Shown here in pieces: positions 12,133-18,945 of a stretch of DNA of 64,000 bases. Origin of the DNA: Acholeplasmatales bacterium (GTDB lineage Bacteria > Bacillota_I > Bacilli_A > Acholeplasmatales > Acholeplasmataceae); NCBI GenBank assembly GCA_031284585.1, contig JAITXT010000003.1:124001-188000 (forward strand), given 5' to 3'. How positions within the stretch are numbered: the first letter of the stretch is position 1; the number at the start of each line of letters is the position of its first letter. The notes below the pieces were generated by a model. It did not search any database and was not told the origin of the DNA. It saw only the letters and a program-made list of their open reading frames with translations. Made by a program: the position numbers and the translations under genes.

Positions 12133-12405
12133 ATGAGAAAACATTATGAAACAAGTTTTAAAGAAATGATTATAGACTTATATAATCATCAAAAAAGTAT
12201 CACATTTCTTTGTAAGGAATATGACCTTCAGAGATCGTTAATCTACTCTTGGATACACTGTTCTAAAAAGAAAGAAGAACCAGAGGTAGCTCAATCTGAG
12301 TCAGAATTAAGGCAAGAAAATAAGAGACTTAAAAGAGAATTAGAGAATGCTTTATTAGATAACGAAATACTAAAAAAAGCAGCAATGATCCTAGGGAAAA
12401 AGTAA
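12133..12405 (+). CDS. IS3-family transposase OrfA
   Basis: 90 residues, normal for OrfA. Residues 1-45 form the helix-turn-helix of transposase_8 (YETSFKEMIIDLYNHQKS, then YDLQRSLIYSWI), and residues about 58-85 a leucine-zipper-like coiled coil (ELRQENKRLKRELENALLD), ending in ILKKAAMILGKK as in many IS3 OrfA proteins. A run A7G at 12372-12379 is the usual slippery site for the -1 frameshift that makes OrfAB. OrfA itself is intact, but its partner orfB is broken soon after, so the element is probably immobile. Confidence 0.9.
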   Translation: MRKHYETSFKEMIIDLYNHQKSITFLCKEYDLQRSLIYSWIHCSKKKEEPEVAQSESELRQENKRLKRELENALLDNEILKKAAMILGKK

Positions 12406-13646: not shown

Positions 13647-14717
13647 TTAGATAGAAAATTCAATTGCTTCGACCAATTGTTTTATCCCATCCATTGTAAC
13701 ATTAGATACATTGAAATGTTCTAATGAAGTAACATCACCTTTAAGATCACTTTTTGTCATGACTCTAATTCGAGGAATATTATCTGCGCCAATACGTTTA
13801 AGTATTTTCAAACATTCGTCATATTGACTAATACCTAAATCGCTAGGTGATTCTACAAGTACAATTAATTTTGAATCTGTTATATCTTTAATAGTTGTAT
13901 AAAATGAATCATACAATATTGTTGGCATATCATAAATGAAACCAACTGTATCAACCAAAATAAAAGGTTTAGAATTATTATTCAATTTAATTAGTTTAGA
14001 TTTTGTAGTTAAGGTAGTAAATAACATATCTTTACTTTCTACAGTATTTTCACCTACTTTATCAACTATTTTTATAATTGAATTCACCAATGACGATTTT
14101 CCAACATTTGTATATCCAACAAGAGAAACTACAGGAATCTCATTTTTCTGTCTTTCTTTATTGCTGGTATCTTTTTCTTTTTTTACACTTAAAATCTTTT
14201 TTTCTAAAGAAGCAATTTCCTCTTTTAATTTCCTGCGATTAAGTTCTAGTTTTGTCTCTCCAGCACCTCTCGCATTAAACGAACCTCCTCCCTGTCTTGA
14301 CAATCCACTATCAAATCCAATTAGTCTCGGATACATATATTTTTTCTGTGCAAGAGATATCTCCCAAATTGACTCCTTAGTCCTAGCTCTTTTAGCAAAT
14401 ATTTGCAAAATAATGAAGGTCCGATCTAATATTGTTACTTGTAAAATTTGTTCTATATTTGCAATTTGTTTAGGAGATAGTTCTTGATTAAAAATAACTA
14501 AATCAATTTCCCCATTCAAACTATCAATAATGCTTTTTATTTCTAATAATTTCCCATATCCACAACAAAACAGTGGATGAACCCTCTTTAAATTTTGAGT
14601 AATAACCATCTCACAGGAAACGTCTACTGTTATACATAAATTGACTAATTCATCAATCGAATTATTAAATTCAACACTCTTAACATTACCGACAGATACA
14701 ATTATACTTTTACTCAT
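13647..14717 (-). CDS. hflX: HflX-type ribosome-associated GTPase
   Basis: 356 residues, somewhat shorter than the usual 400 or more. HflX splits or rescues stalled/hibernating 70S ribosomes in Firmicutes. Hallmarks: GGGSFNARGAGETKLE (143-158), a coiled coil (160-190), the G1 loop GYTNVGKSS (201-209), G3 in VDTVGFIYDMP, and G4 near MTKSD. The N-terminal nucleotide-binding-like domain is reduced. No Shine-Dalgarno sequence precedes the ATG: TATAAT ends just 7 bases before it, so the mRNA could be leaderless. It diverges from cdaA, and tRNA-Gln follows its stop by three bases. Confidence 0.93.
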   Translation of the reverse strand: MSKSIIVSVGNVKSVEFNNSIDELVNLCITVDVSCEMVITQNLKRVHPLFCCGYGKLLEIKSIIDSLNGEIDLVIFNQELSPKQIANIEQILQVTILDRTFIILQIFAKRARTKESIWEISLAQKKYMYPRLIGFDSGLSRQGGGSFNARGAGETKLELNRRKLKEEIASLEKKILSVKKEKDTSNKERQKNEIPVVSLVGYTNVGKSSLVNSIIKIVDKVGENTVESKDMLFTTLTTKSKLIKLNNNSKPFILVDTVGFIYDMPTILYDSFYTTIKDITDSKLIVLVESPSDLGISQYDECLKILKRIGADNIPRIRVMTKSDLKGDVTSLEHFNVSNVTMDGIKQLVEAIEFSI

Positions 14718-14794: not shown

Positions 14795-15559
14795 ATGATA
14801 ATATTGAGTAAATTGTTTGATACAAATGTGGAGTGGTGGAAAATATTATTAGATTTTTATGTCATTGGCTTAATATCTTCTTTTGTTTTAAGAATTGCGA
14901 TTAAATCAAAAAGAATTTTAATGGCCTTCTTCGTCATAGGATTTCTATTTTTATTACGCTATTTAGCGGCTTTACTTAATTTAAGTGGAACTTTAGTAAT
15001 TTTAGATTATGTTCTTAATTGGTTACCTATCGTTATATTTATTATTTTAGCTGCTGATATTAAATTTGCTCTAGAATCAGTAGGACGCTCAAAAAGTAAG
15101 TTTTTAGGAACAATTAGCGCTAGTGACAATACTAAAAATTCCGTTATTAAAGCAGTATTTAATTTATCTAGTTCAAATACTGGTGCCTTAATAACATTTG
15201 AAAAATATAACAACTTAGAAGAATACTCAGAAAAAGCAATTTCAATCAACGGAGAAGTGACTTCTGAATTACTAGAAAATATATTTGTACCTAATACTCC
15301 CCTACATGACGGTGCAGTAATAATTCGCAAAGATAAAATCGTTTGTGCGGGTGCATACTTTGTATTAAGTGATAATGCTGATGAAAAAACTATGGGTTCT
15401 AGACATAGAGCAGGTCTTGGTATAAGTGAAATAACTGATAGTGTAACTATTATCGTATCAGAAGAAACAGGACATATTCAATTAGCAGTTGAAGGAACTT
15501 TAATAACAGTAGAATCAAGAGAAAGATTAGAAGTTTTCTTAGATTCATTTATAAAGTAG
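14795..15559 (+). CDS. cdaA: Diadenylate cyclase CdaA
   Basis: 254 residues. It makes c-di-AMP from two ATP at the membrane. Three hydrophobic helices lie in residues about 20-88, followed by the DAC domain with the two signature motifs DGA (172-174) and RHR (203-205), and SNTGALITFE and NTPLHDGAVI around the active site. In Firmicutes cdaA is normally followed by cdaR (YbbR domains) and glmM. Here those are missing and a 60-residue membrane gene plus a PAS/degenerate-GGDEF gene follow, so regulation of this cyclase may differ. Confidence 0.95.
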   Translation: MIILSKLFDTNVEWWKILLDFYVIGLISSFVLRIAIKSKRILMAFFVIGFLFLLRYLAALLNLSGTLVILDYVLNWLPIVIFIILAADIKFALESVGRSKSKFLGTISASDNTKNSVIKAVFNLSSSNTGALITFEKYNNLEEYSEKAISINGEVTSELLENIFVPNTPLHDGAVIIRKDKIVCAGAYFVLSDNADEKTMGSRHRAGLGISEITDSVTIIVSEETGHIQLAVEGTLITVESRERLEVFLDSFIK

Positions 15560-15571
15560 AGGTACTCAAGT

Positions 15572-15754
15572 ATGAAAAAATTTATTTTTGGTTTGGTTGG
15601 ATTCATAATTGCTCCATATAGATACATTAATTTCAGAAAAATGTCTGATAAGATTTCATCAAGAGTTGATAGTCTTAATTTTCTTGCTTATATTATTGGA
15701 TTTTTTATATCTGCTTTAATAGTATTTTTCATCTATTTCGGACAAAATATTTAA
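15572..15754 (+). CDS. Small membrane protein downstream of cdaA
   Basis: 60 residues, unknown family. Two hydrophobic stretches (about 3-16 and 38-57) flank a basic linker with YRYINFRKMSDKISSR, so it is likely a two-helix membrane hairpin. GAGGTACTC precedes the ATG. It starts 12 bases after cdaA and its TAA overlaps the next ATG (TAATG), so it sits inside the operon. It occupies the position held by the membrane regulator CdaR in other Firmicutes but has no YbbR domain; a CdaA partner role is inference. Confidence 0.65.
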   Translation: MKKFIFGLVGFIIAPYRYINFRKMSDKISSRVDSLNFLAYIIGFFISALIVFFIYFGQNI

Positions 15755-17313
15755 TGATTTATACTTTACCAACCATTGTTTCAATAATAACTTTAACATT
15801 ACTAATTTTTTACATTCTTTATGAAAAAAAATCTTTACAAAAAATTTATTTATTTATAATTCAGTTTATCTTTTTTTTATCATCAATTTTAGTAAATACC
15901 TTACTTTTTGAAGAAATCGAAGTAAGAGATTTACTTCTATTTTTTATTTTAGGTTTTGATTTACTGTTTTTTCTAACATCAATTTATTTAACAAATCGAA
16001 GAAATGAATATATTTACAGTCTTTTTGTGAATTCAATAAAAAATAGCAAAACAAATATATATATACTAATTAATAAAAACAATAGAGTAAAGGATATTTC
16101 AGATTCTTTTGTTTCCGAATTTGGATTAAAAAAGAAGGAAATAGTTGGGAAAAAATATTTTGATATCATCAAGAAAACTATTCGTATAACAAAATATAAC
16201 GGAATCTCATCAGATAATGATGACTATCAAAAAATATTTTATTCTTTAGTTTCAGATTTAGAAAAAAATAAAGAAGTAAACGAAGAAATATCTTTTCAAA
16301 ATTATAACGGGGATACAATAATTCTCTCTCTACTTACACAACCAACATTTTTTCTAAAAAAATATTTCGGACGTTTAATAATTGGAGAAAAGCATGATAG
16401 TGTTTTTCTTTTAGATTTAGAGAGAAAGATTAAAGATCTAGAATTTGAAAATGAAGGTTTAAATGAAAAACTAATTGCTATATTTGAATCTAGTAATGAT
16501 GGTATTTATTCAAAAGACTTAACACAAAATACAATTTGGCTAAATAATAATTTAAAAAATACGTTAAAAATTAATGATGATATTATTAGCAATTCTGACT
16601 TCAAGAAAAGAATTTTCCCAGAAGACTACTCTACATTAGAACAAAAAATAAGCATAACTACTAAATCTGAGCCTTTTTTTAGTTCAAAATATAGATTTTT
16701 AGTGGATGGACAGTATATTTGGATGGTAGAAAAAGGTAAAGTTTTATATGAAGATCCAACTGGTTCATTTATAATAGGTAACATCAATATTATAAACTCT
16801 CAAGGCCACAATGAAAAAACTGATAATTCATTTTTAGATAATTTATCTAACAAAATAGATTTACACGTATTTATTAAAAAATTAATTGAAAATAACCGTT
16901 ATTTTAACTTACTTTTACTAGATATTAGTAGTATTAGTACGATAAACGAAAATAAAGGTCGTGAAATAGGTAATATTATTCTAGAGCAAACTATCAAGAA
17001 TTGTTGTACAATGTTAGTTGCAAACGAACAATTCATTTTTAGATACTATGGTCCCATATTTGCCTTAATAATGACAGATTCCCGTAAAACACAATTATTT
17101 GAAAGTACGTCAACCGAAAAGAAAAATTCACTTGATATGAATATAAGCATAGGATCTGAAAATATATTTGTTCCTATTTTTGCTGGTATTTGTGGAATCG
17201 ATAATGCATCTAATACTCCAGAGTTAATAATAAAGCATGCTCTTGAAGCACTAAAATTAGCCAAAACAGGAGATTACAATAATAAAATATGTTATTACAA
17301 GAACATCAAATAA
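15754..17313 (+). CDS. Membrane sensor with PAS domains and a degenerate GGDEF domain
   Basis: 519 residues. Three N-terminal membrane helices (about 4-80), then a PAS-like domain (about 95-215, including NIYILINKNNRVKDIS), a second PAS/PAC-like domain (about 240-345, SSNDGIYSKDL ... FLVDGQYIWM), and a C-terminal GGDEF-fold region (about 370-515) with the LLLLDISS strand. At the GGDEF position the sequence reads YYGPIF, so the substrate and metal residues for c-di-GMP synthesis are lost. There is no DHH phosphodiesterase domain, unlike GdpP, which also combines PAS with a degenerate GGDEF. It overlaps the preceding small gene by one base and the next gene by 25. Likely a non-enzymatic signal sensor connected to CdaA. 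Confidence 0.7.
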   Translation: MIYTLPTIVSIITLTLLIFYILYEKKSLQKIYLFIIQFIFFLSSILVNTLLFEEIEVRDLLLFFILGFDLLFFLTSIYLTNRRNEYIYSLFVNSIKNSKTNIYILINKNNRVKDISDSFVSEFGLKKKEIVGKKYFDIIKKTIRITKYNGISSDNDDYQKIFYSLVSDLEKNKEVNEEISFQNYNGDTIILSLLTQPTFFLKKYFGRLIIGEKHDSVFLLDLERKIKDLEFENEGLNEKLIAIFESSNDGIYSKDLTQNTIWLNNNLKNTLKINDDIISNSDFKKRIFPEDYSTLEQKISITTKSEPFFSSKYRFLVDGQYIWMVEKGKVLYEDPTGSFIIGNINIINSQGHNEKTDNSFLDNLSNKIDLHVFIKKLIENNRYFNLLLLDISSISTINENKGREIGNIILEQTIKNCCTMLVANEQFIFRYYGPIFALIMTDSRKTQLFESTSTEKKNSLDMNISIGSENIFVPIFAGICGIDNASNTPELIIKHALEALKLAKTGDYNNKICYYKNIK

Positions 17314-17831
17314 AAAGCGAAATTAGGCGCAAAATGCTTTCAATTCGTGATAATTTGAATATTTCAATCGTAAATGATTGTTCTAACAAACTTTATGAAA
17401 TAATTACCAAAGAGGATTATTATATTAATCACCAAATAATTGGAATTTATTATCCAATTCGCAATGAATTAAATCCCAGAGTTTTAGAAAGAGATCAAAA
17501 TAAAACTTTTTTATATCCAAAAATTATAGGGGATGAAATCAAATTTTTTGAAGCAAAAGATGATTTTGAAGAAAATAAATATAAGATCATGGAACCAAAA
17601 AACTCTGTCGAATCTATCCCAGAGATTATTCTAGTTCCATGTCTTGCTTTAGATGATGAATTAAATAGAATTGGATATGGAAAAGGGTTTTATGACAAAT
17701 ATCTTTCAAAACATAAAAAGGTAATTTCCATCGGAATTATATATAGTTTTCAATTGGTAACAAATATTAAAGTTTTTTCGAGTTTTGATGTAAAATTAGA
17801 TAAGAGGATAATTATAGATTATGATAAATAA
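17289..17831 (+). CDS. 5-formyltetrahydrofolate cyclo-ligase
   Basis: 180 residues, normal length. It converts 5-formyl-THF to 5,10-methenyl-THF with ATP. Family motifs: basic EIRRKML at the start, YYPIRNELNPR, LVPCLALDD and the ATP/folate loop RIGYGKGFYDKYL. It starts inside the PAS gene (25-base overlap) and overlaps ispDF by 11 bases, so it belongs to the same tightly packed operon. Confidence 0.92.
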   Translation: MLLQEHQIKSEIRRKMLSIRDNLNISIVNDCSNKLYEIITKEDYYINHQIIGIYYPIRNELNPRVLERDQNKTFLYPKIIGDEIKFFEAKDDFEENKYKIMEPKNSVESIPEIILVPCLALDDELNRIGYGKGFYDKYLSKHKKVISIGIIYSFQLVTNIKVFSSFDVKLDKRIIIDYDK

Positions 17832-18945
17832 TACAGTAGTAATTCTAGCTGCGGGAAAATCTGAGCGATTCAAAAAAAATAAAAATAAAGTATTGTACCC
17901 ATTGTTAGGAAAGCCTATTTACCAATATAGTTTAGACTTGTTTTTAAATATAGGTTTCAATGTTGTAATTGTTGCGAATCCAAACGATTTGCATTATTTT
18001 GAAAACCTTCCAGAAAATGTAATTGTAGTAGGTGGTGGAAATACGCGTACTCAAAGTGTTAAAAATGGTTTAGATTTTGTTAATAGTGAATTCGTATATA
18101 TTCATGATGCAGCAAGACCATTAATTAATATTGGATTAATTAATCAATTAATTAAAAAATTATCAAATTATGATGCTGCGTATATCTCATCTCCAATTAG
18201 AAATGCTATTAAAACTAAAGATACTTCCCAAACTATACTAAAGACTAATTTTCATTTTTCTGAAACTCCACAAGCTTTTAGAACTTCAAAATTAAAAAAT
18301 GCTTATTATCTTCTTCCAGAAAATATTTCTTATGATGATGATATCTCAGTATATAAAAATATATTTCCAGAAGAATCGATTGGAATAGTTGAAAATCTAG
18401 ATGAAAATCTAAAACTTACATACTCTCAAGATATTAAGACTTTAGAAAATTTATTATGCGAAAACGATTATAGAATTGGTCATAGTTTTGATTTACATCG
18501 CTTAGAAGAAAATCTTCCACTTTTAATAGGAGGTATCGTAATACCTTCAAATAAAGGAGAAGTTGCTCATAGCGATGGTGACTGTTTACTGCACGCCATG
18601 GCAGAAAGTTTACTTGGTTCACTTTCATTAGGAGACTTAGGAAAATACTTCCCTGATACAGATGAAACAACACGAGGAATTAGTTCCACAATTATTATTC
18701 AAAAATCTCTTAAATTAATCGAAGAAAAAGGATATGGAGTAATTAATTTTGATACGATGGTTTATTTAGAAAAACCGAAATTATCACGGTATATTGAAAA
18801 AATTATAGAAAATATTTCGCAAATTACTGGAATATCTACAGATAGGATATCTATCAAAGCAACTACTTACGAAGGTATTGAAGCAATAGGAAAAGGCGAA
18901 GCAATAGCATGTGAATCAACGGTGCTTATAAGGAGAATATATTAA
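17821..18945 (+). CDS. ispDF: Bifunctional IspD/IspF (MEP cytidylyltransferase / MEcPP synthase)
   Basis: 374 residues in two domains. Residues 1-210 are IspD: VVILAAGKSERFKKNKNK (CTP loop) and YIHDAARP. Residues about 216-374 are IspF: RIGHSFDLHRL with the metal Asp/His, SDGDCLLHAMAESLLG and GDLGKYFPDTD. It catalyses two non-adjacent steps of the MEP pathway to IPP/DMAPP; ispE, the step between, is at 61.3 kb. IspDF fusions are known in alpha- and epsilonproteobacteria and some other lineages. The MEP pathway argues for an Acholeplasma/Izemoplasma-like rather than Mycoplasma-like metabolism. Overlaps yutD by one base. Confidence 0.95.
   Translation: MINNTVVILAAGKSERFKKNKNKVLYPLLGKPIYQYSLDLFLNIGFNVVIVANPNDLHYFENLPENVIVVGGGNTRTQSVKNGLDFVNSEFVYIHDAARPLINIGLINQLIKKLSNYDAAYISSPIRNAIKTKDTSQTILKTNFHFSETPQAFRTSKLKNAYYLLPENISYDDDISVYKNIFPEESIGIVENLDENLKLTYSQDIKTLENLLCENDYRIGHSFDLHRLEENLPLLIGGIVIPSNKGEVAHSDGDCLLHAMAESLLGSLSLGDLGKYFPDTDETTRGISSTIIIQKSLKLIEEKGYGVINFDTMVYLEKPKLSRYIEKIIENISQITGISTDRISIKATTYEGIEAIGKGEAIACESTVLIRRIY

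Follow-up and report, generated by a model that had tools for sequence, protein, structure and literature searches.

The question raised by the locus described here is how the synthesis of cyclic di-adenosine monophosphate (c-di-AMP) is controlled when the diadenylate cyclase gene cdaA is not accompanied by its usual partner genes. The locus lies in a 64,000-nucleotide stretch of DNA of an Acholeplasmatales bacterium (the window, to which all positions below refer) and consists of cdaA, a gene for a 60-residue membrane protein (mini), and a gene for a 519-residue membrane protein with two PAS domains and a degenerate GGDEF domain (PASG). As in the cdaA-cdaR(ybbR)-glmM operon of Bacillota (B. 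subtilis, S. aureus, L. lactis), a CdaA-type cyclase is encoded first, a one-span membrane protein follows directly, and the partner proteins are thought to tune the cyclase. In contrast to that operon, YbbR domains are missing, glmM is not adjacent, and a PAS-PAS-GGDEF-like protein is encoded instead. We regard the locus as a form of the known CdaA-CdaR module with altered partners. According to the reading favored here, to which we assign a probability of about 0.5, CdaR and GlmM have been exchanged for an anchor-only CdaR, the mini protein, and a PASG sensor controlling CdaA. The main new point is that CdaR has probably been stripped to its membrane anchor and is not simply absent. No description of the cdaA-mini-PASG locus was found in the open literature searched.

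Conservation of the cdaA-mini-PASG gene order

The three open reading frames (ORFs) are located on the forward strand at positions 14795–15559 (cdaA), 15572–15754 (mini), and 15754–17313 (PASG). The one-base overlaps given in a preliminary description of the window apply to the mini/PASG junction (TAATG, 15752–15756), whereas cdaA and mini are 12 bases apart. The cdaA product, which combines an N-terminal membrane part with a DAC domain (residues 119–235), exceeded the cut-off of the Pfam family DAC PF02457 (134.2 bits, cut-off 27) and scored just below that of the NCBIfam equivalog TIGR00159 (183.1 bits over residues 20–245, cut-off 188.8). The motifs PLHDGAVII and GSRHRAG are present. Since TIGR00159 was by far the best-scoring DAC class and both the membrane part and the DAC domain were recognized, the protein was labeled CdaA-type; judged by its sequence, it is a CdaA-type diadenylate cyclase and the predicted producer of c-di-AMP.

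The gene order was followed in 61 genomes, namely the source genome (1.23 Mb, 77% complete), 36 genomes of its family, and 24 of the order Acholeplasmatales. Homologues of cdaA were found in 57 of them, the source genome included; neighborhoods were taken from the cdaA loci of the 56 relatives and the window was added. In 53 of the 56 relatives (54/57 with the window), mini begins directly downstream of cdaA, at a distance of −4 to +15 bases, and thus occupies the position of CdaR; PASG is the next gene in 49 (50/57 with the window). Because the arrangement recurs in 50 of 57 cdaA-bearing genomes, it is not a product of chance. The three ORFs are real, and their order, for which the preliminary description had called for a comparison with relatives, is kept among them; the 30 named loci include those of Acholeplasmataceae bacterium, Peloplasma aerotolerans, and Tenericutes bacterium.

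PASG was detected in 53 of the 61 genomes. Of the seven loci without PASG in place, one (L058) lies at a contig end; family f2 accounts for three (L066, L069, L070) and genus g7 for the other three (L083, L084, L086). The g7 genomes, which are small (0.7–0.9 Mb) and probably those of phytoplasmas, have kept cdaA and GdpP, and neither mini nor PASG was found in them. In family f2, mini is still located beside cdaA, and PASG lies on a different contig in two of three genomes; in the f2 genome G037, it adjoins its usual downstream genes. The same downstream neighbors accompany PASG in family f4 (G039), where cdaA was not found. An ORF of 1488–1680 residues occupies the place of PASG after mini in family f2 (L066:1160–5626, minus strand; L069:6316–11358).

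No YbbR domain was detected in any of the 61 genomes (the control of the search was positive in 4 of 14 named genomes), and by this search no cdaR with YbbR domains lies elsewhere in these genomes. In the class, YbbR was found in 87 of 296 genomes, all of them outside the order. The earlier statement that CdaR is absent holds for the YbbR domain, but the gene as a whole probably survives as the anchor-only mini. GlmM had also been described as absent. Indeed, TIGR01455 gave no match in the 77% complete source genome, and glmM was not present in any cdaA neighborhood read among the Acholeplasmatales relatives; GlmM-type proteins are, however, encoded elsewhere in 34 of the 61 genomes (259–442 bits, all below the curated cut-off of 447.55). 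A GdpP-type GGDEF domain scored above its cut-off in 58 of 61 genomes. As the source genome encodes a separate GdpP of 811 residues with PAS_GdpP, GGDEF_GdpP, DHH, and DHHA1 domains (Pfam), c-di-AMP turnover appears to be normal in other respects. The chain of this GdpP (L213:502–2937, contig C20) continues at the C-terminus into ribosomal protein L9 (Pfam L9_N, L9_C). Such a fusion may be common to the order, since the GdpP frames of relatives mostly span 808–863 residues, domain content having been checked in the copy of the source genome.

The mini protein and the membrane anchor of CdaR

The mini protein had been described as a two-helix membrane protein of 60 residues. Its size and its membrane location stand, but the structure model contains four helices (residues 2–13, 15–19, 22–34, and 36–57), one of which is hydrophobic enough for a span. 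The 19-residue mean hydropathy of the last helix is 2.53, which is sufficient for an ordinary span, and that of the first helix is 1.1. The protein thus has one clear span, close to the C-terminus, preceded by an N-terminal part in which Pro15 is invariant; on the basis of the model, the most fitting description is that of a one-span protein whose N-terminal helix is interfacial. YbbR domains are not part of it, as 60 residues leave no room for them.

For the comparison with CdaR, 40 loci of the class with YbbR were used, all of which contain cdaA; in 37 of these, the adjacent gene of at least 200 codons was taken as CdaR. For the CdaR proteins of family f14, and likewise for those of f15, 1 of 200 column shuffles reached the hhalign score obtained with mini; when shuffling was limited to the part before the span, 2 of 200 did so in either case. 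Rank tests were based on 371 membrane windows; 334 of these served as controls and were drawn from 121 membrane proteins encoded on 20 other stretches of genome sequence. The mini profile placed CdaR windows at ranks 1, 2, 3, 5, and 8 of 371, with an area under the receiver operating characteristic curve (AUC) of 0.819 over the 37 and of 0.990 for the five CdaR windows of f15. In the reverse direction, the CdaR anchor profiles of f15 and f14 placed minis at ranks 1–3 of 371, the best mini scores being 11.9 (f15) and 13.5 (f14) versus 8.1 and 8.4 for the best controls.

A bridge between the two proteins is provided by the sister family f12. Among 31 inspected genomes, mainly from families without observed YbbR, the f12 genome G067 showed the order cdaA, a gene for a 79-residue membrane protein, and a gene which, from the start of its sequence, we take to be glmM. 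A membrane protein of 75–80 residues is encoded between cdaA and glmM in all eight f12 genomes searched; a YbbR match was obtained in none of the eight, and transpeptidase domains are present in all of them. The f12 profile aligned with the pooled N-termini of CdaR at an hhalign probability of 93.5% (E 2.3e-7, 29 columns). It ranked CdaR windows at positions 1–11 of 371 (AUC 0.962) and minis at positions 1–4 of 371 (AUC 0.885). Because of the profile match to CdaR and the ranks 1–11, the f12 protein would, in our view, be an anchor-only CdaR in CdaR's own seat. In a tree of CdaA (108 rows, midpoint root), f12 groups with the Acholeplasmatales and families f7, f9, f16, f19, and f24, and the YbbR families are placed separately; the support for this split is 85/95, which is under the starred level.

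The tests with mini, the f12 bridge, and the CdaA tree together make it moderately likely that mini descended from CdaR by reduction to the membrane anchor. An anchor-only CdaR makes sense because CdaR is reported to bind CdaA via its membrane domains: the review PMC10243994 describes an interaction of the two proteins through their transmembrane domains and states that the function of CdaR is not known. The same review reports that CdaA and CdaR are fused in one chain in some streptococci. As both can form one chain, the fusions fit a CdaR anchor which acts together with the membrane part of CdaA; they differ from the present locus in that one large chain is formed there, whereas an anchor-like protein is encoded by a separate gene here.

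Two further cases were noted. In family f11 (L170, L182), cdaA is followed directly by an apparent glmM, with which it overlaps, without CdaR or mini. In the genome G319 (L138), which is labeled f9, YbbR is present and the CdaA sequence falls with f14 in the tree; this assembly is likely contaminated.

Domains and distribution of PASG

PASG begins with a membrane region (residues 1–82, 15754–15999, forward strand as for all parts of the gene), for which hydropathy indicates approximately three spans; a low-confidence model places helices at residues 5–23, 28–50, and 57–96. The first PAS domain (residues 102–195, 16057–16338) matched PF13426 below the cut-off of 27 (23.2 bits, E=8.6e-5), and the relative L037 scored above it (38.1 bits). 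The second PAS domain (residues 242–334, 16477–16755) matched PF00989 (25.9 bits, E=1.1e-5, cut-off 22.6), and the GGDEF domain (residues 363–506, 16840–17271) matched PF00990 (42.6 bits, E=7e-11). Since the complete model had a mean predicted local distance difference test score (pLDDT) of 65 and a predicted template modeling score (pTM) of 0.36, the GGDEF part alone was used, which superimposed on the GGDEF domains of diguanylate cyclases (Z 16.6, root-mean-square deviation 2.7, 148 residues aligned).

The degenerate motif YYGPIF was correctly recognized in the preliminary description: residues 430–436 (17041–17061) read R-Y-Y-G-P-I-F instead of R-x-G-G-[DE]-E-F. Asn398, Gly406, Arg430, Gly433, and Phe436 are invariant in 38 PASG sequences, and the rest of the GGDEF signature, acidic positions included, is not conserved as a motif among them. 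In the alignment to solved cyclases, Asn398 corresponds to the I-N-D position and Asn407 to the G-D position, both of which presumably contact the guanine base in PleD. The loss of the metal ligands argues against a normal cyclase, and judged from these positions, the PASG GGDEF domain cannot be one. Catalytically dead GGDEF domains can serve as nucleotide or protein binding modules. Compared with these, PASG keeps the asparagine of the I-N-D position and has lost the signature and the metal ligands, and the aspartate of the G-D motif is replaced by Asn407 in the PASG family. The kept asparagine together with the changed aspartate would be compatible with binding of a different nucleotide, so a nucleotide ligand of the GGDEF-like domain is possible. 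Heme, which had also been suggested as a ligand, finds no support, as neither PAS domain of the 38 sequences has a conserved histidine or cysteine column.

PASG shares with GdpP (TM-PAS-degenerate GGDEF-DHH-DHHA1) a membrane PAS protein's layout and a GGDEF-like domain without the cyclase signature. It differs in having two PAS domains, another type of GGDEF domain, and no DHH/DHHA1, for which no Pfam match was obtained, in agreement with the first description. Neither the GdpP-type GGDEF (PF24898) nor the GdpP-type PAS domain (PF21370) was among the Pfam matches of PASG with E up to 1. A derivation of PASG from GdpP by loss of the hydrolase part was rejected, given the GGDEF domain without a PF24898 match and the presence of a separate GdpP.

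A profile search of ORFs near cdaA revealed PASG relatives in families f7 (1e-67, 1e-106), f16 (1e-79), and f24 (1e-70, 1e-67), and weaker ones in f9 (1e-15 to 1e-30) and in three of four f19 loci (1e-16 to 1e-27; the fourth, with E 3.4, was not significant). The surroundings of cdaA in f21 (three loci), f12 (three), and f13 (one) yielded none. Overall, PASG lies no more than two genes away from cdaA in families f1, f3, f5, f7, f9, f16, f19, and f24. The f7 proteins contain PAS and GGDEF domains, the f16 and f24 proteins checked are devoid of the first PAS domain, and the checked f9 protein with clear matches has two PAS domains and no GGDEF domain. Across families, the membrane region and PAS domain 2 vary least, which makes an enzyme activity of the GGDEF domain unlikely as the common output. 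An ORF of 117–127 residues, presumably encoding methylglyoxal synthase (mgsA), was observed in f7 and f19 between cdaA and PASG or the gene in the place of PASG (L193:3129–3488, L194, L199, L200, L202).

Among the 296 genomes of the class, 73 have a PASG match with E ≤1e-50 and 87 have YbbR; none has both, compared with 21 expected if the two were independent. Matches to PASG between 1e-12 and 1e-50 in CdaR families cover mainly the GGDEF domain and may be ordinary cyclases. Transpeptidase (penicillin-binding) domains are present in 87 of 87 YbbR genomes versus 8 of 73 strong-PASG genomes, a pattern which fits YbbR domains reporting on the wall. Wall loss as the simple cause of YbbR loss is not supported, because f12 (8/8) and part of f3 have transpeptidase domains and no YbbR.

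Proposed control of CdaA and rival explanations

In the mechanism proposed here, CdaR would have been trimmed to a short cytoplasmic segment and the membrane anchor, with the outer YbbR domains gone. The resulting mini would remain attached to CdaA at its membrane part and determine the basal state of the cyclase, and PASG would join the same membrane complex and relay a signal from the cytoplasm to CdaA by way of helix contacts. The GGDEF domain of PASG, without normal synthesis of cyclic di-guanosine monophosphate (c-di-GMP), may serve for nucleotide binding or docking. An internal signal would take the place of the cell-wall input (YbbR outside, GlmM inside) in the control of c-di-AMP, and the GdpP encoded elsewhere would degrade c-di-AMP as usual. 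Complex formation, the direction of control, and the ligand are all points that we infer.

The action of the usual partners varies. In S. aureus, DacA is inhibited by GlmM, and a clear effect of YbbR was not seen in the same study (PMC6368335); PMC11520302 reports more c-di-AMP in a ybbR mutant of this species. In Chlamydia, full DacA output needs YbbR, according to PMC12422730. As the latter two reports are opposed, the sign of CdaR action differs between species. A natural anchor-only CdaR, if confirmed, would reveal the functional core of CdaR; with such versions, the part that binds CdaA could be studied apart from the outer domains, and a 60-residue tool would be available for this purpose. 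The locus is found in mostly wall-less bacteria, and its arrangement suggests that c-di-AMP control has been rewired. Since osmotic control is critical in wall-less cells, a replacement of the CdaA input would be of physiological interest. A wider version of this scenario is tentative and somewhat doubtful: the c-di-AMP synthase module may have been rewired in a large branch of the class, with CdaR cut to its CdaA-binding anchor in cells that still built a wall (f12, part of f3), and an inner-membrane PAS sensor with a dead GGDEF domain may have taken over the input from YbbR and GlmM, PASG acting alone in branches without the anchor.

Several results weigh against the favored reading, and those concerning mini bear on an alternative origin of this protein. 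Mini could be an unrelated small partner of CdaA, new in the Acholeplasmatales, whose likeness to the CdaR anchor arose by convergence of short membrane helices. The direct hhalign comparison with CdaR was weak (2–17%, varying with the CdaR proteins used, and at most 19% after trimming), and for f22, f17, and the pooled CdaR proteins, shuffling of the part before the span left the mini score no lower. The mini profile also failed to pick the f12 proteins (AUC 0.629, p 0.11), and in a class-wide search it did not retrieve CdaR; its matches with E <1e-6 were confined to members of the order, the best one outside (2e-5) being a partial-profile match inside a 344-residue frame. In a rank test with neighborhood ORFs, seven control membrane windows (one of them a CdaR) gave an AUC of 0.57–0.84 versus 0.76–0.88 for CdaR; this test is weakened by unrelated membrane windows reaching 0.84, and the test with 371 windows is the better control. 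There, the minis topped the f14 and f15 CdaR-anchor lists above all 334 control windows, and they occupy the same seat as the convincingly CdaR-like f12 protein, so that we consider convergence less likely. Finally, cdaA has been kept with neither mini nor PASG in 3 of 57 genomes, those of genus g7.

The objections to the PASG part of this reading are of a different kind. Up to two genes separate cdaA from PASG in f7, f16, f19, and f24. The mutual exclusion of YbbR and PASG largely tracks a deep split of the tree and may represent one event; as both sets follow deep branches, the pattern is one of lineage complementarity and not of many independent swaps. In addition, PASG is equally tightly tied to folate and isoprenoid genes. 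It stays with the genes for 5-formyltetrahydrofolate cyclo-ligase (5-FTHF ligase), an ispD-ispF fusion (ispDF), and nifU in f2 and f4, two families in which cdaA lies elsewhere or went undetected, and its tie to CdaA is therefore not exclusive. In all nine neighborhoods read in f7, f9, f16, and f24, ispD or ispDF follows PASG directly or after one gene, as it does in two of the three f19 neighborhoods with a significant PASG (the third reaches the end of the stretch). PASG might thus belong to this housekeeping cluster or be a free-standing sensor unrelated to CdaA, its adjacency reflecting an old block of genes. We judge this to be less likely as well: PASG remains within two genes of cdaA in the eight families named above, strong PASG matches never share a genome with YbbR, and folate and isoprenoid housekeeping enzymes are not known to need a membrane sensor. 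Far less probable still is an active diguanylate cyclase in an operon linking c-di-GMP and c-di-AMP. The GGDEF domain has the right fold, and 14 GGDEF/EAL proteins were counted in Acholeplasma laidlawii (PMC2408644), but neither the metal-binding acidic positions nor GG[DE]EF are kept across the 38 sequences, and the checked f9 relative lacks the domain. PASG is hence a good and plausible candidate for a regulator of CdaA, the qualification being due to its equally tight tie to the folate and isoprenoid genes. The new way of tuning CdaA proposed earlier agrees with the conserved gene order and the lack of YbbR, but mini, as a probable CdaR reduced to the anchor, is not a wholly new partner, and PASG is linked just as closely to other genes.

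In the window, the gene for 5-FTHF ligase (17289–17831, forward strand; PF01812, 81.9 bits), the usual gene after PASG in relatives, overlaps PASG by 25 bases. It is followed on the same strand by what we take to be ispDF (17821–18945), a conserved neighbor of PASG, an ORF of 104 residues, and two genes which, from their sequences, are presumably nifU and pgi. Upstream, a gene for a GTPase presumably of the hflX type (13647–14717, reverse strand; PF13167/PF16360/PF01926) is divergent from cdaA, as in most relatives. An RNA scan of the window detected no riboswitch, three tRNAs being the only RNAs found, and a search for AGGAGG yielded nothing useful. A 90-residue N-terminal part of a transposase (HTH_Tnp_1 match) is encoded near the locus at positions 12133–12402 and is possibly a remnant of an insertion sequence.

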